A stretch of DNA of 64,000 bases, from the NCBI RefSeq assembly GCF_026015985.1, contig NZ_CP110389.1, forward strand, positions 5,116,001-5,180,000. Direction: 5' to 3'. Of the stretch, positions 49,471 to 62,030 are shown one piece after another. The stretch comes from Rhodopseudomonas sp. P2A-2r (GTDB lineage Bacteria > Pseudomonadota > Alphaproteobacteria > Rhizobiales > Xanthobacteraceae). How positions within the stretch are numbered: position 1 is the stretch's first letter; each line of letters starts with the position of its first letter. The translations under genes were made by a program, and so were the position numbers. Under the pieces are notes generated by a model, which ran no database searches, had not been told where the DNA came from, and saw nothing but the letters and a program-made list of their open reading frames with translations.

Positions 49471-50766
49471 TTGAATCGGCAAGGGATGCGAGTCTTGGTT
49501 TCAGCATTAGTCGTGTGCCTGGGGGCTTTCCTGAAACCTTTCCCGCATCATCTGGCGATACTATCGATCGCGGCCCTTTCATCGCTTGGCGCCGGCTGTT
49601 CGATCATGCCAGCAAGCGGTCCTCAGAGCATGGATATCAGGAGCGGCCAAAACCCCGAATCGGACAGCCTCCCCTATGCGCTCGTGCGCCTCAATCCCGA
49701 TGTGGTCCAGATTCTCGGGCGCTACACGCCACGGCTGTCCACCGCATTTGCCAATCGCACGCCGCCCAAAGCGTTCCGCTTCGGCATCGGCGACATCCTG
49801 AGCGTGACGATATTCGAGGCCGCGGCGGGCGGCCTGTTCATCCCGGCCGAAGCCGGCGTTCGTCCCGGCAACTACGTCGTCATCCCAAACCAGGCCGTCG
49901 ATGATGGCGGCAACATTACCGTGCCCTATGCTGGCGCTATCAGGGCCAGCGGGCGGACGCCCGCGGAAGTCCAGCGGGCGATCGTCGATACGCTAAAGAA
50001 CCGGGCCATTGAGCCGCAGGTCCTTGTGTCCGTAGTCGAGCAGCGGACGTCGCTGATCAGCGTGCTGGGCGACGTCAAGGCATCGGGGCGCTTCCCGGCC
50101 AGCCCGTCCGGCGAACGTATCGTCGACGTCATCGCCCGCGCCGGCGGCCCCGCCTCCCAGGGCTACGACATGTGGGTCACACTGGAGCGTCAGGGCCATC
50201 GCGCCAGTGTACCGTTCGGCGCTCTCCTTTATGAGCCGTCCAACAATATCTTCGTGCTCCCGGCCGACGTCATCTATCTCTACAACCAGGCCCAGACCTT
50301 CGTCGCCTTCGGTGCCGCCGGCAACCAGGGACAGTTCAAGTTCGACGCGTGGCGCATTTCGCTGGCCGAGGCGGTGGGCAAGGTCGGCGGCCTGGCCGAT
50401 GGTCAGGCGGATCCAGCCTCCGTTTTCCTCTATCGCGGCGAGACCAAGGAAGTCGCGCGCCAGATCGGCGTCGACATCTCCCGTTTCAACGGCCCCATCG
50501 TGCCGGTGATCTATTCCGTAAACTTGCGGGATCCTAGCGGGTATTTCCTCTCGCAGTCCTTCGAGATGCGCAATAAAGACGTAATCTTCGTCTCGAATGC
50601 GGCTGCGGTTGAGACGACTAAATTCCTAAATTTCTTGCGCACAATCATGGCCACCGCCAACGATCCCATCCTCTACGCGACCAACGGATATGCTCTGAAG
50701 GCTGCGATCAACGGGGGCACGTCGACGATAATCACCACGCCGACTCCGATCACTTCGGGCCGGTAG
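49471..50766 (+). CDS. wza: polysaccharide export outer-membrane protein, Wza/GumB-like
   Basis: The protein contains the export domain FRFGIGDILSVTIFEAAAGG, NYVVIPNQAVDDGGNITVPY followed by AGAIRASGRTPAEVQRAIV, and SLBB-type repeats (SLISVLGDVKASGRFPASPS; TFVAFGAAGNQGQFKFDAWR). The N-terminus ends in ALSSLGAGC, an approximate lipobox with Cys about residue 43 when read from TTG 49471; ATG 49486 is an alternative start. It forms the outer-membrane channel for the polysaccharide. It follows wzc by 90 bases and is presumably in the same operon. Confidence 0.92.
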   Translation: MNRQGMRVLVSALVVCLGAFLKPFPHHLAILSIAALSSLGAGCSIMPASGPQSMDIRSGQNPESDSLPYALVRLNPDVVQILGRYTPRLSTAFANRTPPKAFRFGIGDILSVTIFEAAAGGLFIPAEAGVRPGNYVVIPNQAVDDGGNITVPYAGAIRASGRTPAEVQRAIVDTLKNRAIEPQVLVSVVEQRTSLISVLGDVKASGRFPASPSGERIVDVIARAGGPASQGYDMWVTLERQGHRASVPFGALLYEPSNNIFVLPADVIYLYNQAQTFVAFGAAGNQGQFKFDAWRISLAEAVGKVGGLADGQADPASVFLYRGETKEVARQIGVDISRFNGPIVPVIYSVNLRDPSGYFLSQSFEMRNKDVIFVSNAAAVETTKFLNFLRTIMATANDPILYATNGYALKAAINGGTSTIITTPTPITSGR

Positions 50767-51588
50767 GCTGATCCCCTAGTGTGGAAACCAGCCAAACTGT
50801 CCCTTCATTCCGAGAAGGGTTCTGAGATAGCGACGCCGTGACAACGCACGCATCCGTGCGGCGATGCAGCGATCGAAGGCTCAGCTCGGGAAGTTGATCG
50901 CACAACGCGGTCTAAATCGGAAGAGGTCTGCCAGAGCGCAAGTGGATCTTTGTCCATGATGCCCGATGCGCCCGAAGACCGTGCGCCTGACGGCAGTCCG
51001 CCGGGCAGGACGCGAAGATCGTCCTTTCCCCGGACACACGCTTTTGCTCCCTGATGACTGCATCCAGTCCGGTAGGCGACGATAACGCACCTGACGCGGT
51101 CATCCTAGCGCCGTCGCCTGCAGTGCCGCGGGGTCAGTGATCTGCCGGATGTCGCAGGTGAAAACCAGCCGAAGGCCGCTTAGGCATAAGCGTTGTTCCG
51201 ATCCCACCTTTCGGCTGATGTCCTGACCTGTGTTTCGGCGTGGATCCGATGCCGATTGACAGTAGCGCGCCACTCTTTGATCGGAGTCTTCGAGAGCAGG
51301 TCATCGGGCTCCGGCAAAAGACCCTATGTGGGTCCGCCCGACGTAGCCATCGCACGGCCTCGGCAAACGAGCCGGATCGCTTCGGGCTCCAATCCACTTG
51401 TCCTCGGGACTGAACACCTCGGCCGAAGTCTGGCTTCGGCCACACGTCGGCTCTCAATATGCCAGACGGGCGGAATAAAAATCTAGATTTGCATAAAAAC
51501 GCATTATCTGATATTTAATATTTAATTAATTGCCAAGTTTTTATATGCGGGTTCGCCGCCGTTTCGTCACGTTTTCCTAGGAGCGGCA
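50767..51588. other. intergenic region with insertion-sequence debris
   Basis: No intact gene is visible. A short inverted repeat (cccttc...gaaggg, 50808-50826) follows wza but has no T tract, so I do not call it a terminator. The segment from 51187 resembles an IS66 end. The last 100 bases (51485-51545) are AT-rich (atttaatatttaattaattg) and probably hold the promoter of the next gene. Confidence 0.45.
51187..51240 (+). repeat. solo IS66-type left-end remnant
   Basis: The stretch taagcgttgttccgatccca and its continuation through cacctttcggctgatgtcct closely follow the left end of the intact IS66 element (taagcgtcgtcccggccgca; cacctttcggttgacgtgct). I count most positions matching over about 50 bases. 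No tnp genes follow, so it is a relic of a related, not identical, element. Confidence 0.6.
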
Positions 51589-53573
51589 ATGGCGACGACC
51601 GTCGTTTTTCTACTGTATTGCGGCATGATCGCGTCTGTCCCGGTGCTGCTTCTTTCACAGAGCGCCATCGGTGACGGCATCGTCTCGATCTTGGGCGCGA
51701 TGGCCGTGGCCATCGTCGCTGCGACGTCGGTATCACGCGATCTGTACAGGCTGCCGCGCCTTTTCAGCCCGGTCCTTCTCGCCGGATTGGCCGGAGCCTT
51801 CCTCGTCATGCTGCTGCAGATCCTGCCCTTGCCGAGCGGCCCGCTGATGCATCCGATCTGGAGCAGTGCCGCGGCGGCCGTTGGCGAGAAGCTGGCGGGC
51901 TCGATCACGATCGATACGGGCATGACCCTGCTGGTCCTCTGCCGCCTCACTTGTATGGTCGGGGTCGCCCTGCTCGCAGTCCTGCTCGGGCAACACCGAC
52001 GACGCGCCGAGAGACTCCTGTGGACGCTTGCAGGGATCGCGACGTTGGTGTCGCTGGAGCGTATCGCAAGCCCCTTCTGGCTGCCGGAGACCTTCCAGAT
52101 TCTGCCGCCCACGGCGAATGGCGTTGCCGAGACAATCGGCATATTCGGCTTCGTGCTAACCGTTGCAGTGATCGTTCGCAGATATGACTCGCCTCCGACG
52201 CGGTCAAAGAGCCGCAAGCCAAGAGGGACCTTCACAATTGACATGGCGGCGCTGGCGGCCTGCCTCATCAATCTCGGTGCGGCTTTCTGCAGTGCGAATC
52301 CCACTACACTATTTTCTGCCTTCTTCGGAGGAGGCCTCCTGGTTGCCGTCCTGGTCGTCCGCAAAAGCCGCCTCGGCGCCTGGGGGCAGGCCGGAACGGC
52401 CGCGGTGCTGGCACTTGCGCTGACGACGTTTTTAGCCTTCATGCCTGGCCGCGCCGAAAGCGAGATGATCGTGCACATGATGGACGACGCGCGACTGCTG
52501 GGCGTCGGCGCCGGAACTCTTTCGGCGCTGGCGCCGATCTATGGCCATGCGTTAGCAGGTCCGTCCCTTGAGATTCCCGTCGTTGCGATGGTTGCCATAG
52601 AAATGGGGCGGCCGTTTCTTTGGTTGATCGCCCTGATGGTCATGACATGGGCTGCGATCGTGCTACGGGCCTCGCTGATGCGTGGTCGGGATTACGTCTA
52701 TCCCGCTGCCGGCGCGGGGTGTATTGCCGCGTTTCTCATATCCGCGCTGTCGAATGGAGGCGGTCTCGCGCTCGCGTCATCCGTCATCCTGAGCGCAGTG
52801 CTCGGATTGGCCATTGCGCAGAGCAAAGGTGAAACCCCCGCCTCTGATGCCTTCCCCCTGGACCGGCGCCCGCTGCATCGCTCGATCCCCATTCGTTTGG
52901 ATGTTATCTGCGCAGCGCATCAGCGATTTTCGCGCTGATCCTCACGGCGCAGGGAGCATGGATCCTGTTGCCGGAAATGCTGCGCCCGACGCCCATCGGC
53001 TTCCCCAGCGACGACCGACACGCCACGGTCGCGCGGCTGGACAAGGAGAGGGCGACGAGGTCTGCCGCAATTGCGGCCGTCCGCGGCGACCTGTGGGCAG
53101 AGAGCGCCTTCAGCGAGGCCGGCATGGTATGGACCGACGAGGCATTTGAACTCGAGGCAAGTGGTGCCCGCAACGCGGCGACCCTGAAGAGCCTGCTCCA
53201 GACACTGCATCACTCGCCGCACCGCGGCGATGCTTGGCTGATGCTGGCCTCGACCTGCGAACGGCTGAAGCTGCAGGCCTGTAATGTCGGCGCGCTCCTG
53301 AAAATGTCGTATTATACGGCTCCCAATCAAGCCGGATTGCTGCCATTGCGACTGGCGCAGGCATTGCGCGCGAAGGACATCTTCAGCGACGAAGAACTCG
53401 CCGACATGGTCCGTCGCGACGTCCGCTTGGTGATCATGCGGTTCACGGCCTTGCGCCCCGCCCTGATCGCCGCCTACCGGTCAGGGTCCCCCTCGGGGCG
53501 GAAGTTGGTGGAGCAGACGGTGACGTCATTCGACCCCGTCTATCTGACCATACTGCGCGCGCAACTCACCTAG
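51589..53573 (+). CDS. O-antigen ligase/polymerase-like membrane protein with C-terminal soluble domain, one frameshift
   Basis: The first stretch (to about 52900) has around ten membrane segments and a WzyC-like core: LLGVGAGTLSALAPIYGHAL then GPSLEIPVVAMVAIEMGRPF. The second stretch adds a last membrane segment (SASAIFALILTAQGAWILLP) and about 190 soluble residues (ESAFSEAGMVWTDEAFELEA; WLMLASTCERLKLQACNVGA) of helical, TPR-like character. One G added to the pair at 52899-52900 gives RLGCYLRSASAIF and a continuous protein of about 661 residues; otherwise the second part has no good start. It may ligate or polymerise the EPS and is coupled in position to wzc and wza. Confidence 0.75.
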
Positions 53574-53639
53574 GTTCTGCACTCAAACCTCTTGCAAGTG
53601 ACGATGCGGAGTCATTCGAGGCTCTCATAAGGAGGCCTT

Positions 53640-54345
53640 GACGTCACGTTCGATCTGGCGACGTCAGGTGGTCTGTCCATCATTGCTCCTCTGTTGCCCG
53701 GCGGAGGGGCAAAAGAACGGCCGCCCGTGGCCGGACGATAGCAAGCCTCTCAATGGGATCCTCTTTATGTTGCGCACAGGGATGCTTAAGCGCGATCTGT
53801 TGCAGCGCCACGATCCGTAGAAGACGATATCAAATCGCTTCAATGCCTTCGCCGATGCAGGTATCTCGGTTCGGATATTCGCGGCCCTGCAGCGAAGTCG
53901 CCGCAGTCGCCGCAATTAATCAACTCGTCCATCATTCGCGCTCACCATCACGCGGCCAGCGGAAGAAAGGGGGCCGGATAACGCAATTGGTCGTTCCCGT
54001 CGAGGAGAGAGCACCAAGACCAACGCGACTGTTACCAGGCCGGCATGCCGATCCGCATCGTTGTGTTCCCGCGCCAGTCGTGCGCTAAGGGCTGGCTCCT
54101 GACCGCGACCTCATCGTGGACGGAGCCTACCACGACGCCGTGCGATCATTGATCTGGTCGAAGGCCGCGGCGGCCGGCTTACATCCCGTCCTGCCGGGAC
54201 CCCGAGGTCCGACGTTCAGTCGATCCAGTACACAACTGCGGGCACCACCCCATCGAACGCTTCTTAAACAAGCTGAGGCGCTTCCGCCGCATCGTTACGA
54301 CAGACGGCTCGAAACTTCTTCGCAGCGCCCCGTCTATGGATACGG
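53640..54345 (+). pseudogene. IS5-family transposase remnant
   Basis: Fragments in several frames recall an IS5-type transposase in the right order: DDSKPLNGILFMLRTGMLKR near 53730, a HHHA-containing piece near 53940, and IERFLNKLRRFRRIVTTDGS near 54260. Many stops and shifts separate them, far more than a single sequencing slip would cause. The gene is therefore decayed. It lies directly upstream of the priming glycosyltransferase promoter. Confidence 0.65.
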
Positions 54346-54379
54346 TTTGAACCCACCCACAAATCACGCGTTCGCACAC

Positions 54380-54480
54380 CTAAATTATTTAATTTTCTCT
54401 TAATATATTTAACAAAACGCTTGCCAGCTACGCTTCCGAATATAATAGTTAAATTATTATTTAATTTAATTAACCGGGTG
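54380..54480. promoter_or_regulatory. AT-rich promoter island upstream of the priming transferase
   Basis: Two AT-rich blocks (ttatttaattttctcttaat and attatttaatttaattaacc) lie between the IS5 debris and the start codon. Composition and position suggest the promoter region; I could not define -35 and -10 boxes. Confidence 0.4.
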
Positions 54481-54486
54481 GCGGGC

Positions 54487-55938
54487 ATGCAGTCCATGCG
54501 GAGACAGTTCGAGTTGAATGCCGCGTCTGTTCCAGACCTGGCCAACGGCCGGGCCCAGGACAAGAGGTGGCCGGTCCAATACGATTCCGTGGAGATCCTG
54601 GCCTTGCTTGCGGACATCGCGACTATCTTCGTCGCGAGCCTCGTGGCCGCATTCGCTCACATGCTGCTGCACGGAACGTCGCAGGAAATCACGCGGCTTG
54701 CCAGCGTAGCGCTGCCGACTTCGGTGGTTTTCACGGCCGTAGCGAAGTCATTTAAAATGTATGTGCCCAAGGCCCTGCTCGACCTGCGTAATCAGGTGCG
54801 AGCGGTGTGCGCGATCTGGCTGGGCGTGTTTTTAATCCTCGTGGCGACCACCTTCACCTTACAGATGAAGAGCGAGATTCCGTGGGATTTCGCCCTCATT
54901 TTCGGTGTCGGCGGGCTTGCGATCCTGATCGCCCAGCGCGCGCTGCTACGCGACGCGCTGCGCAAGGGGCTCGCAGAGCGGCGCTTCTCCGGCCGCAAGA
55001 TCGTCCTGATCACCGATGAAGCCGGCCGCGACTTGGTCAATACACTGAGCGACCTCGGCTTCTTCGTAGAACGGCATTTTGCGCTGCCGCCAGCCCGCTC
55101 GTCCCTCCAGGAGGAACTCATCGGAAAGGTAATCAATTATACACGTGAGACCGAGATCCGCGAGATCTTCTTCGGAGTGACTCCGGACCATTGGTCGCGG
55201 CTGAAGCATGCCGTCGCCGGGCTGGGCGTGCTGCCCCTGCGCGTCAGGCTAGTCCCGACCGGAGCGAGTTCAGATCTGTTTCACAGGCCGTCTACGGAGC
55301 TTGGCGGCGCGCGCTGCGTCGAACTCCAGCGCGGACCGTTGTCGCCAGTCGCGCTGCTCACAAAGCGTGCCCTCGATATCTGCCTGGCTGTCGCCGTACT
55401 GACGGTGCTGTCACCCTTGCTCCTGCTCGTGGCGGTTGCCATCAAACTGGATTCGAACGGCCCCGTTCTGTTCAAGCAGCAGCGCTGCGGGTTCAACGGC
55501 CGCATTTTTACGATTTACAAATTCCGCTCGATGTCGGTGCTTGAAGACGGGCCGACTGTCGTGCAGGCAAGGGCAAACGATGCGAGGCTGACGCGGCTGG
55601 GTGGATGGCTCCGCAGGATGAGCATCGATGAAATTCCCCAGCTCCTCAACGTGCTTGAGGGTAGCATGTCCGTCGTCGGGCCACGACCGCACGCCGTTGC
55701 TCATGACAACGAGTTCGACAAAGCGGTCAGAAACTATGCCTATCGACGTAGGGTGAAGCCCGGTCTGACCGGCCTCGCCCAGATCAGGGGCTTTCGAGGC
55801 CCGACCTCAACGCCCGCTTCGATCGAACTACGCGTGAAACAGGACTTGCGCTACATCGACAACTGGAGCTTGGGATTGGATCTCTTGATCCTGCTCCAAA
55901 CACCCTATGAGCTGATCCGCGGAAGAAATGCGGTCTGA
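54487..55938 (+). CDS. priming polyprenyl glycosylphosphotransferase (WbaP/GumD/PssY type)
   Basis: The protein has four or five N-terminal membrane segments (for example ILALLADIATIFVASLVAAF), a nucleotide-binding-like central region (GRKIVLITDEAGRDLVNTL), a further membrane helix (ICLAVAVLTVLSPLLLLVAV) and the catalytic bacterial sugar transferase domain: FKQQRCGFNGRIFTIYKFRS, LRRMSIDEIPQLLNVLEGSM, SVVGPRPHAVAHDNEF and RRVKPGLTGLAQIRGFRG. It transfers a sugar phosphate from a UDP-sugar to undecaprenyl phosphate, the first step of the EPS pathway. I use ATG 54487 because the longer frame from 54421 reads through the AT-rich leader. Confidence 0.92.
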   Translation: MQSMRRQFELNAASVPDLANGRAQDKRWPVQYDSVEILALLADIATIFVASLVAAFAHMLLHGTSQEITRLASVALPTSVVFTAVAKSFKMYVPKALLDLRNQVRAVCAIWLGVFLILVATTFTLQMKSEIPWDFALIFGVGGLAILIAQRALLRDALRKGLAERRFSGRKIVLITDEAGRDLVNTLSDLGFFVERHFALPPARSSLQEELIGKVINYTRETEIREIFFGVTPDHWSRLKHAVAGLGVLPLRVRLVPTGASSDLFHRPSTELGGARCVELQRGPLSPVALLTKRALDICLAVAVLTVLSPLLLLVAVAIKLDSNGPVLFKQQRCGFNGRIFTIYKFRSMSVLEDGPTVVQARANDARLTRLGGWLRRMSIDEIPQLLNVLEGSMSVVGPRPHAVAHDNEFDKAVRNYAYRRRVKPGLTGLAQIRGFRGPTSTPASIELRVKQDLRYIDNWSLGLDLLILLQTPYELIRGRNAV

Positions 55939-56695: not shown

Positions 56696-57162
56696 AAGAT
56701 AGTCCCAACCGGTCCATTAAAATTCACCGTTCGCCACACACCAGATATTTGTTCCCGAAATAAGGCGAAATCACCGAGTCGAACAAGACCAAAATTGACC
56801 TGTTTCACCGACTTTCGGCATAAAAAATATTAATTACGCCAGCCAGGCTGGAATTTAACAACCTTCATAAACGGCTAGAAGGCCCTGCTGCCCGTTCTGC
56901 ACAGCCGAAAACTTGAAAAGACGAGCTTCCAGGTCGGAACGCCGCGGTGCCAACAATGTTCCCTATTGTTTAATTTTAATCGACAAATCAAATTCAAAGT
57001 ATTACAATACAATGTCGCATGACGTAGTTAATATAATAATTTCTATATTAATTGCGGCCTTATGCAGAATGGCTCAACCGATTACTCAGCGGGTAGCGCG
57101 TCAGAGATGTGATCGCCTTGCCTGTTCGATCTTTCGAAGTCCGGCCTGATCCGAATTTTTCA
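56696..57162. promoter_or_regulatory. AT-rich divergent region between two H-NS genes
   Basis: The region holds no gene I can identify. It contains AT-rich stretches at 56820-56850 and 56955-57060 (taatataataatttctatat). It is a natural site for autoregulation by the two H-NS proteins (inference). Confidence 0.45.
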
Positions 57163-57561
57163 ATGGTGCGGAGAATTATGCGCAAGCCAGACCTACCAGA
57201 TTTGGAGGCCATGCAAGTCGACGAGCTCTGGACCATCCATGAGGAGCTCACGAAGATCCTGTCCGACCGAATTCTTGGTGAAAAACGCGAGCTCGAAAAC
57301 AGGCTCTCGAAGTTGAACCAGACCGCCCCCTTGACGGCCGACGGGCTGCGGAAACGCCCCTCCCGTCGCAAGTATCCCAAGGTCCTACCCAAGTATTTCA
57401 ATCCCTTGGCGCCGAGCGAAACATGGTCGGGCCGGGGAAAGAGACCTCGCTGGCTCGCTTTGGCGCTCCAGGCTGGACATGTCCTAGAAGAGCTGAAAAT
57501 CAAGAGAAACGACGACGACAACGATCCTGAATTGGTTCCCGCGGAGCAGTCGTCATCCTGA
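57163..57561 (+). CDS. H-NS family nucleoid-associated regulator (copy 2)
   Basis: From ATG 57163 (57178 is possible) the protein has an N-terminal helical segment (LEAMQVDELWTIHEELTKIL then RILGEKRELENRLSKL) and the DNA-binding motif YFNPLAPSETWSGRGKRPRW. The C-terminal tail is acidic (NDDDNDPELVPAEQ), unlike copy 1. The two copies clearly differ in sequence, so they may form hetero-oligomers or have different targets. Confidence 0.88.
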   Translation: MVRRIMRKPDLPDLEAMQVDELWTIHEELTKILSDRILGEKRELENRLSKLNQTAPLTADGLRKRPSRRKYPKVLPKYFNPLAPSETWSGRGKRPRWLALALQAGHVLEELKIKRNDDDNDPELVPAEQSSS

Positions 57562-58443: not shown

Positions 58444-58701
58444 TCAGAAGAATTTACTCAGCAACTTGTCCAGCCACTCAAGCAGATCGCGATCCCGGTC
58501 GCCGCGCGGAGGACCGTCACGGCCGCCACCGGACTTCGCGACGGCCTCCGAATTCAACGACGTCGACAGGAGCATCGTCAATGCCGGTGGCGTAACGGCC
58601 GCGAATTTCCCGCACGCGGCCAGAAACTTGCGCCGGTCTTCGTCGAGTTGATCTTGTAACGGATCTTGACCTTCCACTTTTGGATCGTTGTCAGCAGACA
58701 T
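58444..58701 (-). CDS. small Tat-signal protein, candidate partner of the PqqD-HprK module
   Basis: The 85-residue protein has an acidic N-terminus, a twin-arginine motif DRRKFLAACGKFA (Arg 23-24), a hydrophobic stretch VTPPALTMLLSTSLNSEAVA, then a Gly-rich hinge (SGGGRDGPPRGDRDRD) and an amphipathic C-terminal helix LLEWLDKLLSKFF. GGGGA lies upstream of the ATG. Similar small RRxFL...TPP proteins occur in alphaproteobacteria, but I know no proven role. It is divergent from the PqqD-HprK fusion with an AT-rich shared promoter. It could be exported folded, or be the peptide that the neighbouring enzymes act on (inference). Confidence 0.75.
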   Translation of the reverse strand: MSADNDPKVEGQDPLQDQLDEDRRKFLAACGKFAAVTPPALTMLLSTSLNSEAVAKSGGGRDGPPRGDRDRDLLEWLDKLLSKFF

Positions 58702-58822
58702 GTCACGTCCCCGCGTTTAATTAAAATGAAAGATTGCCGTTTATTTAAATCGAATTAAATATAGAGTCAAGTTTACGTCGAACCGGCCGCTTGTGCGCCA
58801 CATCGGCGTAATAACTGGAGAA
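58702..58822. promoter_or_regulatory. AT-rich divergent promoter
   Basis: The stretch ttaattaaaatgaaagattg and tttatttaaatcgaattaaa lies between the Tat-signal protein gene and the PqqD-HprK gene, which face apart. Both genes probably start transcription here. Confidence 0.45.
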
Positions 58823-59965
58823 ATGATGGATTCAATTGCGCCTCAAGGATCCAAGCCAACGTTCGGCGGTCTTCGACCGGCAACCGGCACGTCGTTCGCG
58901 CTCATCGGACAGTTGCCGGTACTGTTCAGCGAATACGCGCAAGAGCTTTTCGAGTTGACTGACGTGGCTGCCTTCATCTGGTGCAGCATGCAGGACGAGG
59001 TGTCGTTGGAGACAATCCGCGATCGACTCATCGATCGCGGTCTGAGCGCCACAGGGGCGCGCCAGACCTTGCGAGACGCTCTTAATCAATGGCTGAGAGC
59101 TGGACTGCTTGTGCCCCATATCGACGCTGCCGATTTCGCGTTCACCGCGCTGATCGGCCTGCGGCCTCTCGAAGTCCGCGCATCGGATGCCGGGGTCCTC
59201 GACCTCCTGAAGTCGTTGTTCGTCTCAACGGCGGCCCCCGCCAGCAAAGCGGAGGCGACCTTCACGGTTCATCGGTTTGGCGACTCCTCCATCTTGATGC
59301 ACGACGGCCGCATGATCCTCCATTGCTCCTTAAAAGAGCTTGCTCCTAGCTTCAGGGCCTATGCCGTCAAGCATCTGCTGCTCGCTGCCGGTGCCCGCGA
59401 TGTGATCTTCCACGCTGCCGCCGTGACGTCAGGCGATCGCGGAATGCTGATCAGCGCGCCGCCGGGAGTGGGCAAGAGTACGATCACCATGCATCTGCTG
59501 CATGCTGGTCTCCGATTTGCGACTGACGATATCGTGTTCATCGCGCCCGATGGCTCGATCAGGGGCGCGCCATTTGCGCCGACGCTGAAGTCCGGTGCCT
59601 GGCCGCTTATCGGAGACTTCAGGCCCGATCTATTCAGTGTCCCGAGCCATGACCGGTTTGACGGCAAGGCGGTCCGCTATCTGGACGTCGGGTCCAATCT
59701 GCACAAAGGCGCAATGCGGGCGAGCTGGTTCATCTTTCTCGAACGTACGACCCGCTGCGCGCCGCCGGTGCTGGAGGAACTGAGCGCTCTGGAAACCCTC
59801 AAGCGGATCGTCGGCGCCTCTTACGCGAGCCATGGCAAGCTGACCAGCGACGGCTTCGGCATGCTAAAGAACATGGTGTCCCGTACGCGCTCCTTTGTGC
59901 TCCATTACACGGAAGCTGAGGAGGCCGTCGACAAGCTGTTGGAGCTCTGCGATGGCAAGCTATAG
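58823..59965 (+). CDS. PqqD-like domain fused to HprK-related kinase
   Basis: The protein has about 380 residues from ATG 58823 (GGAG upstream; an ATG at 58826 is equally possible). Residues about 20-100 resemble PqqD peptide chaperones (FSEYAQELFELTDVAAFIWC; IRDRLIDRGLSATGARQTLR). From about 175 an HPr kinase-like domain follows: DVIFHAAAVTSGDRGMLISA, Walker A APPGVGKSTITMHLLHAG, and the DD motif of HprK in LRFATDDIVFIAPDG. In the HPr-rel-A systems I know of, PqqD-like and HprK-related proteins are usually separate, so the fusion is notable. No HPr or PTS gene is near. Its stop overlaps the nucleotidyltransferase start. Confidence 0.82.
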   Translation: MMDSIAPQGSKPTFGGLRPATGTSFALIGQLPVLFSEYAQELFELTDVAAFIWCSMQDEVSLETIRDRLIDRGLSATGARQTLRDALNQWLRAGLLVPHIDAADFAFTALIGLRPLEVRASDAGVLDLLKSLFVSTAAPASKAEATFTVHRFGDSSILMHDGRMILHCSLKELAPSFRAYAVKHLLLAAGARDVIFHAAAVTSGDRGMLISAPPGVGKSTITMHLLHAGLRFATDDIVFIAPDGSIRGAPFAPTLKSGAWPLIGDFRPDLFSVPSHDRFDGKAVRYLDVGSNLHKGAMRASWFIFLERTTRCAPPVLEELSALETLKRIVGASYASHGKLTSDGFGMLKNMVSRTRSFVLHYTEAEEAVDKLLELCDGKL

Positions 59966-61019
59966 CCGCGCACTGCTGCCGCTCTGCGCGTGTTTCCGGG
60001 GCGACGATCCCGGGCGCACCGATTGGACGGCACTTCTAGCCCTCGCCAACCACACATTGACGACACCGTCGCTGGCCGTCTTCGTCAGGTCGCAGCTCGC
60101 TACGATTCCGGCCGACGTCGCCGCCTATGTCCGGGAACTCCATGAACGCAACGCGATCCGCAACGATCGCCTGAACGCTCAACTCGAAGAGGCCGTTCTC
60201 TCGCTGAACCGCGTCGGGATAACTCCCGTCCTCGTGAAGGGGACAGCCACGCTCGCAACTATTCCACTGTCCGATCGCGCACTTCGATTGATGTCCGATC
60301 TGGATCTTGTTGTCGGCCCCAACGAGATCGCCGCCGCCATGAAGGCACTGGCGGCGATCGGCTACAGCATCGATTATGAGTCGGACAGGCGACACACGAA
60401 GAAATGGTACGCCGACCTCAAACGCTCCCAAGACGTCGGAACTATCGACTTGCATGAGGCGTTTCCTGGCCAGCCTTTTTACGATCAAACACCGGACGAG
60501 CTTCGTCTCCACCTGCAGCTGATCCGCCTGGGCGGCGCCAGTGCACTGGTTCCCTCCCCGGAGCTTCAGGCGCTAATGTTGGTGGTGCACGATCAGTTTC
60601 AGGACTACGACTACTGGACCGGCTGCATCGACCTGCGGCATCTGCTCGACTTGAAGGCGATTTTTGCAGCGCCCGGTGGCTTCCGTTGGGAACTCCTCGA
60701 GACGATGACATCTAGTGCGATCGCGCGAAACGCCCTTGAAACACAGCTCTTGCTGCTCACTACGCTTTTCGACGTCCAATTTCCTGTCCGTCATCGGCGA
60801 CGGATGCCGAAGCTCCGGGCATGGCGCCAACTGTATCAGGCGAGGTTTCCTGCCGTCCGCTATCTGCTTCTTCCGATGGGGCTGCTCGACCTTCGAAGAC
60901 ATCGCGCACGCCCGGGACCGGCAGGATCGGGCGGGGCGAAGAAGCGCTGGTTTCCCAAGGTCAGCACCTTTCTCTTTCTGCTCTCGCTGTCGCGCCGGTA
61001 CCGCGCCGGAAAACTGTAA
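59952..61019 (+). CDS. nucleotidyltransferase family protein (NTP_transf_5-like)
   Basis: The 355-residue protein has the core GITPVLVKGTATLATIPLSD and RALRLMSDLDLVVGPNEIAA, where SDLDL supplies the two metal-binding Asp of the nucleotidyltransferase fold, and a later DLHEAF for the third. Helical C-terminal regions follow (ELQALMLVVHDQFQDYDYWT then GCIDLRHLLDL). The ATG overlaps the PqqD-HprK stop by 14 bases, so the two are coupled. The family is known as a partner of PqqD/HprK-related genes; the substrate is unknown. Confidence 0.85.
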   Translation: MASYSRALLPLCACFRGDDPGRTDWTALLALANHTLTTPSLAVFVRSQLATIPADVAAYVRELHERNAIRNDRLNAQLEEAVLSLNRVGITPVLVKGTATLATIPLSDRALRLMSDLDLVVGPNEIAAAMKALAAIGYSIDYESDRRHTKKWYADLKRSQDVGTIDLHEAFPGQPFYDQTPDELRLHLQLIRLGGASALVPSPELQALMLVVHDQFQDYDYWTGCIDLRHLLDLKAIFAAPGGFRWELLETMTSSAIARNALETQLLLLTTLFDVQFPVRHRRRMPKLRAWRQLYQARFPAVRYLLLPMGLLDLRRHRARPGPAGSGGAKKRWFPKVSTFLFLLSLSRRYRAGKL

Positions 61020-61199: not shown

Positions 61200-61550
61200 G
61201 TGACAACCGTGAGTTCATTGGTTCGAAGTGCTGTTGCGACACAACGTTTGGCTGACGTTTCTATCCATATAAGGAACCTCATGAGGGACCTCTATGAACT
61301 ACGGGAGGCCGTAGCCCAAGCCGAGGGCCGCGCCCGTGTCGCGGAGGGTACGCGACGATGGCAAAAGTTCCCGCCGCGCGCAGAGATCGCTTGCGACGGG
61401 CAGCAAACCATATCAAGGCGGCATTGTCCGCATGCGGCGCGACGTGACGCCCCCTCTGCTAACCGACGTAAGCGGACGGGTCGAAGAGGTATTGTATCAC
61501 CCGCTGTCGGCGATCGACGACGTTCTGGCCCTCGACCGTTGCAGCCTTGA
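61200..61550 (+). CDS. small hypothetical protein, possibly interrupted
   Basis: The first 55 residues (SLVRSAVATQRLADVSIHIR; NLMRDLYELREAVAQAEGRA) read like a real helical protein; the rest of the frame is Arg/Pro-rich and looks like non-coding translation. The gene may end early through a shift near 61370. No function can be given. The wider region 61020-62030 otherwise shows only frames without motifs. Confidence 0.35.
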   Translation: MTTVSSLVRSAVATQRLADVSIHIRNLMRDLYELREAVAQAEGRARVAEGTRRWQKFPPRAEIACDGQQTISRRHCPHAARRDAPSANRRKRTGRRGIVSPAVGDRRRSGPRPLQP

Positions 61551-62030
61551 TCTGGCGGATTTCCGGAACGGGGGATCGCAGTTGCTCTCGCTCGACCGCG
61601 GTAGGATCTGATGAACGATTCTGGCCTATACGGCGACAGACCGCGCCGGGGGCGAGCGCGTTGTCGCCTCTCCATCATAAAGGAGCCGGGAGCCACAATC
61701 GCCCGGACGGCCGGCTACAGACTAACGCTCGCCCAATTTCTCCACCGACTTTGTTCGATGGCTCGGCGGTGCGAGGACGCGCAGCCAGCGTCGCAGTCGA
61801 TCAAGCAACCTTGCCGAACGCGCAATCCGGAACATCCTCGTCCAGCAGTATCAATCATGCGGAGACTGGAATCATTTGCCGATCCAAAATCGAATTATGC
61901 TCCCTCCAGTGAATCTCGCTGGTAATTCACATTAACAGCGTGACTGAATTTTCGAGATGGAGCGTGGACGCTCGATACCTCATGATTGATAGTCCGATAC
62001 ATGTCCGGCAACGTGATAGGAGCTCTCAAT

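Follow-up and report, generated by a model that had tools for sequence, protein, structure and literature searches.

The window analysed here, 64,000 nucleotides of Rhodopseudomonas sp. P2A-2r (positions 5116001–5180000 on a single 6.74-Mb contig), carries three genes that recur together in related bacteria: a gene for an 85-residue protein and, divergent from it, genes for a fusion protein with an HprK-like kinase domain and for a nucleotidyltransferase (NTase). The N-terminal domain of the fusion matches the fold of the recognition elements (RREs) of ribosomally synthesized and post-translationally modified peptides (RiPPs), its kinase domain contains the catalytic residues of RiPP kinases, and at the genome level the kinase and the small protein occur together. 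By analogy with the B1-K-N systems of phosphorylated lasso peptides, we think it probable that the module modifies a short ribosomal peptide, in which case RRE-guided phosphorylation of a RiPP-like precursor would be followed by tailoring by the NTase.

Gene arrangement and protein domains

The gene for the 85-residue protein, a candidate precursor termed here the RR peptide, occupies positions 58444–58701 on the minus strand. The fusion gene (58823–59965, 380 residues) and the NTase gene (59952–61019, 355 residues) follow on the plus strand and overlap by 14 bp. The divergent spacer between them (58702–58822), which presumably contains the promoters, has an AT content of 57.9% over its 121 bp as compared to 41.6% for the whole window, a level equalled by 2.6% of the window's 121-bp windows, and the eight divergent spacers measured in relatives contain 52–64% AT. 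A first-pass annotation, made from the letters of the window alone, had described three genes that belong together, with an AT-rich divergent spacer and a 14-base overlap. Coordinates and strands agree with that description, and the set recurs in relatives.

The RRE domain of the fusion comprises approximately residues 15–98 (58865–59116, plus strand). Its similarity to the PqqD family (PF05402) scores 19.0 bits for the protein and 22.8 bits in a genome search, both below the cut-off of 23.4. A search of the PDB with a profile of 14 sequences matched the N-terminal part of the fusion to TbiB1 (5v1u, E 1.3e-7), TfuB1 (6jx3, E 8e-6) and two more lasso or PqqD-family entries, and the C-terminal part to HPr kinases, four at E 2.3e-6 to 2e-5 and a fifth at 0.0016. 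The AlphaFold2 (AF2) model predicts strands within residues 16–44 followed by three helices within residues 47–92, and its predicted local distance difference test (pLDDT) score, by 10-residue block, is 84–92 for residues 21–90, 57 for residues 11–20 and 76 for residues 91–100. The top six Foldseek matches to this model are TbiB1 and TfuB1 chains, with target-normalised TM values of 0.85–0.90 and with E ≤ 0.001 for two of them; the matched structures were solved with leader peptides. Profile search and fold thus uphold the weak PqqD score, and with it the earlier view that PqqD and HprK regions (APPGVGKST, FATDD) share one protein. The PqqD-like domain had been labelled a peptide chaperone; by profile and fold, RRE is the better label. 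Among the loci of relatives, the RRE and kinase domains are separate in L138 and are found in reversed order in L139.

The best NCBIfam match of the fusion is HprK_rel_A (TIGR04352), at 67.5 bits and below the cut-off of 200. Its score against HPr(Ser) kinase/phosphatase (TIGR00679) is 23.2 bits, below the cut-off of 240; on this score and the fused RRE we rejected an ordinary HPr kinase. The kinase motif H197, G215-x-G217-K218-S219 and D235-D236 (59411–59530, plus strand) has the same spacing as H148, G166, G168, K169, S170, D186 and D187 of BsfK, a RiPP kinase for which the His, P-loop Lys-Ser and Asp-Asp positions were reported to be important (PMC10368454). In particular, the residues of RiPP kinases of the PadeK/BsfK type (H197, K218, S219, D235 and D236) are all present, and the seven motif residues are retained in 20 of 20 sequences of a close alignment, the window's included. 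The position of BsfK G163 is occupied by A212 in the window and by Gly in most homologues. In a wider alignment of 14 sequences Ser219 is replaced by Thr in six, and L054 has Glu for the second Asp. Another of the 14 (L056 2434–3636, genome G128) has lost the His, Gly217 of the P-loop, the Lys and the second Asp.

The NTase scores 103.9 bits against NTP_transf_5 (PF14907; cut-off 31.2) and contains a K96-G97...D116-L-D118 signature (60237–60305, plus strand) that is conserved without exception across alignments of 13 and 17 sequences, the window included. Its AF2 model has a mean pLDDT of 79.8. The nearest structure is a Helicobacter NTase, and the next matches are a fungal NTase-like protein, LnuA, ANT(2'') and TglT; a search of solved structures with the NTase profile returned no credible relative (best E 0.36). 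Judged with a profile of 13 sequences, 12 of which came from the 32 kinase loci of the order, an NTase gene is no more than 2.2 kb from the kinase at 25 of those 32 loci and at 15 of 21 loci of the class. Among plasmid records, the kinase query matched 29 and the NTase query 27, all of them within the 29.

The peptide family and its association with the kinase

The translation of the small gene contains DRRKFL, a Gly-rich stretch and the tail DLLEWLDKLLSKFF, features that the first-pass annotation had already picked out, and it matched no Pfam or NCBIfam family at E ≤ 1. Nonsynonymous (dN) and synonymous (dS) divergence from three relatives were 0.075 and 1.29, 0.153 and 1.84, and 0.099 and 1.75, respectively. 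For the seven pairs compared, dS was saturated in two, and the highest dN/dS of the remaining five was 0.130/0.786. Thus, the small open reading frame is a real gene under purifying selection.

An alignment of 19 family members contains a conserved, leader-like segment at residues 23–55 (RRKFLAACGKFAAVTPPALTMLLSTSLNSEAVA; 58537–58635, minus strand). Mean pairwise identity is 78% for residues 22–58, 25% upstream and 41% downstream, and because identity is highest within the RR...AVA segment and lower before and after it, the family appears to consist of a conserved leader with variable tails. Across 25 diverse peptides, R24 and P39 alone never vary. The leader-like segment is similar to the YxxPxL motif bound by lasso-type RREs; at the place where other members have YxxPxL the window peptide has VTPPAL (58579–58596, minus strand), a candidate RRE recognition motif. 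RREs of groups that include the lasso and PqqD ones are reported to bind W/Y/LxxP/L/I (PMC12710340), and BsfB1 has been linked with Tyr(-17), Pro(-14) and Leu(-12) of its precursor (PMC10368454). Strict YxxP occurs in 17 of 63 peptides compared to a shuffle mean of 1.3, and [YFWLVI]xxPx[LIVM] in 40 of 63 compared to 6.2, with shuffles that disregard the relatedness of the peptides and the position of the match. Ser57 (58531–58533, minus strand), which is invariant in the 19 members, is the best candidate for a phosphate acceptor as judged by conservation.

The variable tail of the window peptide (58447–58527, minus strand) is composed of a Gly-rich hinge and the amphipathic end. Other tails differ in build. 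A GNNG(W/Y/F)GNG segment followed by DG.P, perhaps a type of core peptide, is found in unlinked and some linked paralogues (L058, L060, L061, L065, L067, L068, L227, L231 and others). Peptides that end in GHSGC and have a further Cys in the tail are encoded at L055 (10035–10280), L129 (7902–8174) and L130 (9553–9819). At locus L135, several peptides that carry DRRQVLK and WVKPVVNAVIPPAHA are encoded close to HprK-like genes and form a divergent branch.

The kinase and the small protein co-occur in three sets of genomes. In 200 relatives the kinase (E ≤ 1e-10) and the small protein (E ≤ 1e-3) were each found in 14 genomes, with 12 in common; in 397 genomes of the order the kinase (E ≤ 1e-20) was found in 24 and the small protein (E ≤ 1e-6) in 11, each of which has the kinase; and in 376 genomes of the class the kinase was found in 22 and the small protein in 7, with both in 5. 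The hypergeometric values for these sets (1e-15, 3e-15 and 8e-6, respectively) overstate the strength of the association because they ignore shared ancestry. The first-pass annotation had reasoned that the link would fail if the small protein occurred mostly without PqqD/HprK genes; in all three sets it occurs mostly with them (12/14, 11/11 and 5/7). Exceptions among the 200 relatives are few. The kinase is present without a window-type small protein in G128, which has the degenerate kinase on a 4-kb contig, and in G144, where a divergent peptide adjoins it. The small protein was matched without the kinase in G007 (77% complete; best kinase match 1.9e-4) and in G146, where the match (E 3.1e-4) was rejected as spurious, the site being a long open frame with stops and holding a long unrelated protein. 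Of the two exceptions in the class, G639 does show a kinase match (E 1.2e-11), next to which lies an RRE-like piece. The small protein has many paralogues, often several per genome, whose genes are not linked to that of the kinase.

Kinase loci that have no match to the window's own peptide family often still contain a short gene of like build. We chose 35 such peptides by eye and held out each family group, with the profile built from the others. With these held-out profiles, 25 of the 32 order loci show an RR peptide at E ≤ 1e-4 no more than 1.6 kb from the kinase; at L050 the adjacent peptide was the second-best match. The order loci that were missed are L051 and L123, which have peptides elsewhere in the genome, L126, L135 and L139, which have divergent candidates by eye, and L056 and L132, which are contigs of about 4 kb. 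For loci outside the training of the profile, a peptide was found at E < 1e-4 in 11 of 21 class loci, with two further at 0.006, and in all eight of the plasmid loci fetched from the 29 matched records. The plasmid loci are from Sinorhizobium (pSymB of S. meliloti Ak57), Ensifer, Rhizobium (two), Leisingera, Parasedimentitalea, Novosphingobium and Methylobacterium. Among 20 named close loci, several of which coincide with relatives already counted and are not independent, the peptide is adjacent in eight.

In a contrast set of 60 loci whose match is confined to part of the kinase domain (L167–L226), an RR peptide was found near one (L177); a match at L215 (E 0.0011) was set aside as it is not an RR peptide. 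Profile matches of at least 16 bits number 47 in 185 kb near kinases (35 of 48 loci) versus one in 570 kb elsewhere; the near-kinase figure is partly circular because many of those peptides trained the profile. The lone match far from kinases is another peptide of the L135 locus.

Proposed mechanism, neighbouring genes and alternatives

In the mechanism that we propose, the RR...(V/Y)xxP leader of the small protein would dock onto the fusion's RRE domain in the form of a strand, and the fused HprK-like domain would phosphorylate a Ser or Thr residue within or close to the variable tail, with Ser57 as the foremost candidate. The NTP_transf_5 enzyme would then place a sugar or nucleotide on the phosphate or beside it, and the modified peptide may exit by the twin-arginine translocation (Tat) pathway in species where a tail follows AxA. 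More tentatively, and with distinctly less confidence than in peptide modification itself, we suggest that the module may represent an undescribed RiPP class that is defined by an RRE-kinase fusion and NTP_transf_5 and has no cyclase. Its products would be phospho- or phosphoglyco-peptides derived from precursors that share an RR-YxxP leader and differ widely in their cores, several being encoded at a distance from the enzymes, with Tat export in some lineages.

Several observations weigh against modification of the RR peptide. The window motif is VTPPAL rather than YxxPxL, strict YxxP is limited to the 17 of 63 peptides noted above, and no Ser or Thr is conserved in all 25 diverse peptides. 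AF2 confidence is low for the P-loop/HprK half of the fusion, and that half of the model was set aside. The NTase chemistry is borrowed from a single lasso system, for which a nucleotidyl intermediate is possible, and homology of the lasso NTase to PF14907 is assumed. Genome G631 carries the peptide with a kinase match that is only P-loop-sized (E 9.2e-8). Seven of the 32 order loci and 10 of the 21 class loci have no peptide at E 1e-4. The 6-kb flanks of 12 of the 20 named close loci, all of them Bradyrhizobium, contain none; all 11 searchable genomes of those 12 have peptide genes elsewhere. Finally, genes for exopolysaccharide (EPS) and rhamnose are enriched near the kinase, which would fit another substrate too.

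This polysaccharide context is enriched and not general. EPS or rml homologues (E ≤ 1e-8) are present in 11 of 53 kinase regions and one of eight plasmid regions versus none of 22 other regions; the remaining 42 kinase regions have no homologue of the seven query proteins, which include three EPS proteins of the window together with the RmlA, RmlC and RmlD proteins of relatives and would miss other sugar genes. Five kinase regions (L044, L045, L047, L050 and L122) have rmlC and rmlD together, adjoining the NTase by gene calls, and polysaccharide genes are annotated near the kinase in plasmid loci L229 and L230. Thus, the enrichment speaks either for an EPS-related substrate or for a sugar donor of the NTase. 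The first-pass annotation had suggested modification of the small protein, which is also our preferred reading, or of an EPS-linked target; the enrichment lends some weight to the latter, although most kinase loci show no such genes by these queries.

In the window itself, exopolysaccharide genes occupy positions 49471–55938 and include an export protein (PF02563, SLBB) and a polyprenyl glycosylphosphotransferase above the TIGR03025 cut-off, with two genes between them that match no family. Two H-NS-family genes (PF00816; 56318–56695, minus strand, and 57109–57561, plus strand) separate the EPS genes from the module, and members of this H-NS-family cluster are present in 8 of 28 regions compared. 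A weak RmlD-like remnant is found at 61456–61755 on the plus strand (37.5% over 104 columns, E 2.6e-6). In L127 (3122–9272), genes for an XrtA-like amidotransferase, an AMP ligase, an acyl carrier protein (ACP) and a 256-residue protein of no known family lie 5' of the kinase and of a peptide with a Thr-rich tail. L128 has a similar cluster by resemblance of gene calls, and by eye L054 has a similar gene ahead of the kinase.

An unlikely alternative to peptide modification is that the small protein is simply exported by Tat, its conserved segment being mainly a signal peptide, and that the kinase and NTase act elsewhere, for instance on polysaccharide or lipid carriers of the EPS locus. The EPS genes upstream in the window and the regional enrichment would fit this, as would the peptide itself, in which by eye RRxFL fits the twin-arginine motif and is followed by a hydrophobic stretch and AxA (DRRKFL...SEAVA). 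The window peptide, however, matches no Tat signal model in NCBIfam or Pfam. A few of the 25 diverse peptides weakly match Tat-target or unrelated families. In favour of Tat export, matches at E ≤ 0.1 were obtained by three of them to a 'formate dehydrogenase region TAT target' family (best 1.9e-5), by one to TIGR01409 TAT_signal_seq (5.6e-4) and by one to Pfam TAT_signal (0.081). Conversely, of 19 Tat-like N-termini scored as controls against the peptide profile, the single one with 16 bits or more is an RR peptide. The signal-like region is also far more conserved than the remainder of the protein, and most kinase regions lack an EPS or rml homologue by the queries used. Moreover, the relatives at L134 and L136, three copies at each, stop by eye at or within a few residues of AxA, the would-be cleavage site, so that an exported mature peptide cannot be general and the earlier description of a small exported protein does not hold throughout the family.

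The same tail-less relatives would suit a peptide that serves as a carrier or scaffold for building a small molecule and is not itself the end product, as would the amidotransferase, AMP-ligase and ACP genes before the kinase in L127 and, by resemblance, L128. Most listed peptides, the window's included, have tails past AxA, and we judge a carrier role to be less probable still than Tat export. Least probable of all, and in our view very improbable, is a toxin-antitoxin-like unit in which the NTase is a toxin restrained by phosphorylation, as in Rv1045-Rv1044 (TglT-TakA). The NTase model does match TglT/MenT3 among other NTases, and antitoxicity by phosphorylation has been reported for Rv1044-Rv1045 (PMC7205606). 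In the structural matches, however, 4ok0, 5uvd, LnuA and ANT(2'') outrank TglT, and the peptide gene travels with the kinase. The kinase is moreover HprK-like and has an RRE domain, a type that we take to differ from that of TakA. PADLOC gave one weak match for the kinase (mad8, E 0.0024) and none for the NTase, and a defence system was likewise set aside.

Relation to known systems

Databases already name HprK-like kinases and NTP_transf_5 proteins that have PqqD partners. Our literature searches found no paper on the HprK-related kinase or HPr-rel-A, none on the module, and no substrate for such kinases and NTP_transf_5 proteins outside lasso clusters; in two RRE surveys, no word that begins with 'kinase' occurs in the available main text. 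The question of the kinase and NTase substrate becomes directly testable by mass spectrometry with a peptide family that accompanies these enzymes, has an RRE-type motif and is encoded, among others, in Sinorhizobium meliloti, which is grown in laboratories. If modification of the RR peptide is correct, phosphorylation of peptides by HprK-like kinases would reach beyond lasso peptides, and a candidate RiPP family would be added in rhizobia and their relatives.

The SynChlorMet cassette resembles the module in that ScmC is an HprK-like protein in a peptide-modifying cassette, although the similarity is marginal (E 0.031). We take ScmD of that cassette to be PqqD-like and its context to be one of radical SAM enzymes; no radical SAM protein turned up in a scan of 10 window proteins or in those plasmid stretches that carry annotation. 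The HPr-rel-A system (TIGR04352 HprK_rel_A and TIGR04353 PqqD_rel_X) is closer, as it combines PqqD-like and HprK-like functions and, we presume, includes an NTase. Unlike that system, the window module scores far under the curated cut-offs, has its domains fused, and is accompanied by a peptide family that no HPr-rel-A model describes. The window fusion does not match TIGR04353 at E ≤ 1; scores in relatives are 22.7 bits at L134 and 25.1 bits at L138 (cut-off 35).

The B1-K-N systems of phosphorylated lasso peptides (paeninodin, pseudomycoidin and Bradymonas bsf) are the known systems from which our mechanism is drawn. In these, kinases are reported to modify Ser residues of the precursor, accelerated by an RRE, and an N enzyme to add hexose to the phosphate (PMC9266682, PMC10368454, PMC8498205, PMC7533575). 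A lasso cluster as such was rejected, as the leader peptidase B2 (PF13471) has no match in the whole genome; a tblastn search with the Asn-synthase-like protein of L127 found no lasso cyclase at E ≤ 1e-5 in the 64-kb window, the stretch that it covered. The likeness lies in an RRE of the lasso B1 fold, a kinase with identically spaced His, Gly-x-Gly-Lys-Ser and Asp-Asp residues, an NTase alongside, and a precursor with a YxxP-like segment. Unlike the lasso systems, the window module has its RRE and kinase fused, and its RR-peptide precursors are often several per genome and unlinked. We regard the module as a variant of the RRE-kinase-NTase peptide-tailoring systems, and there is a fair chance that it forms a separate RiPP class.

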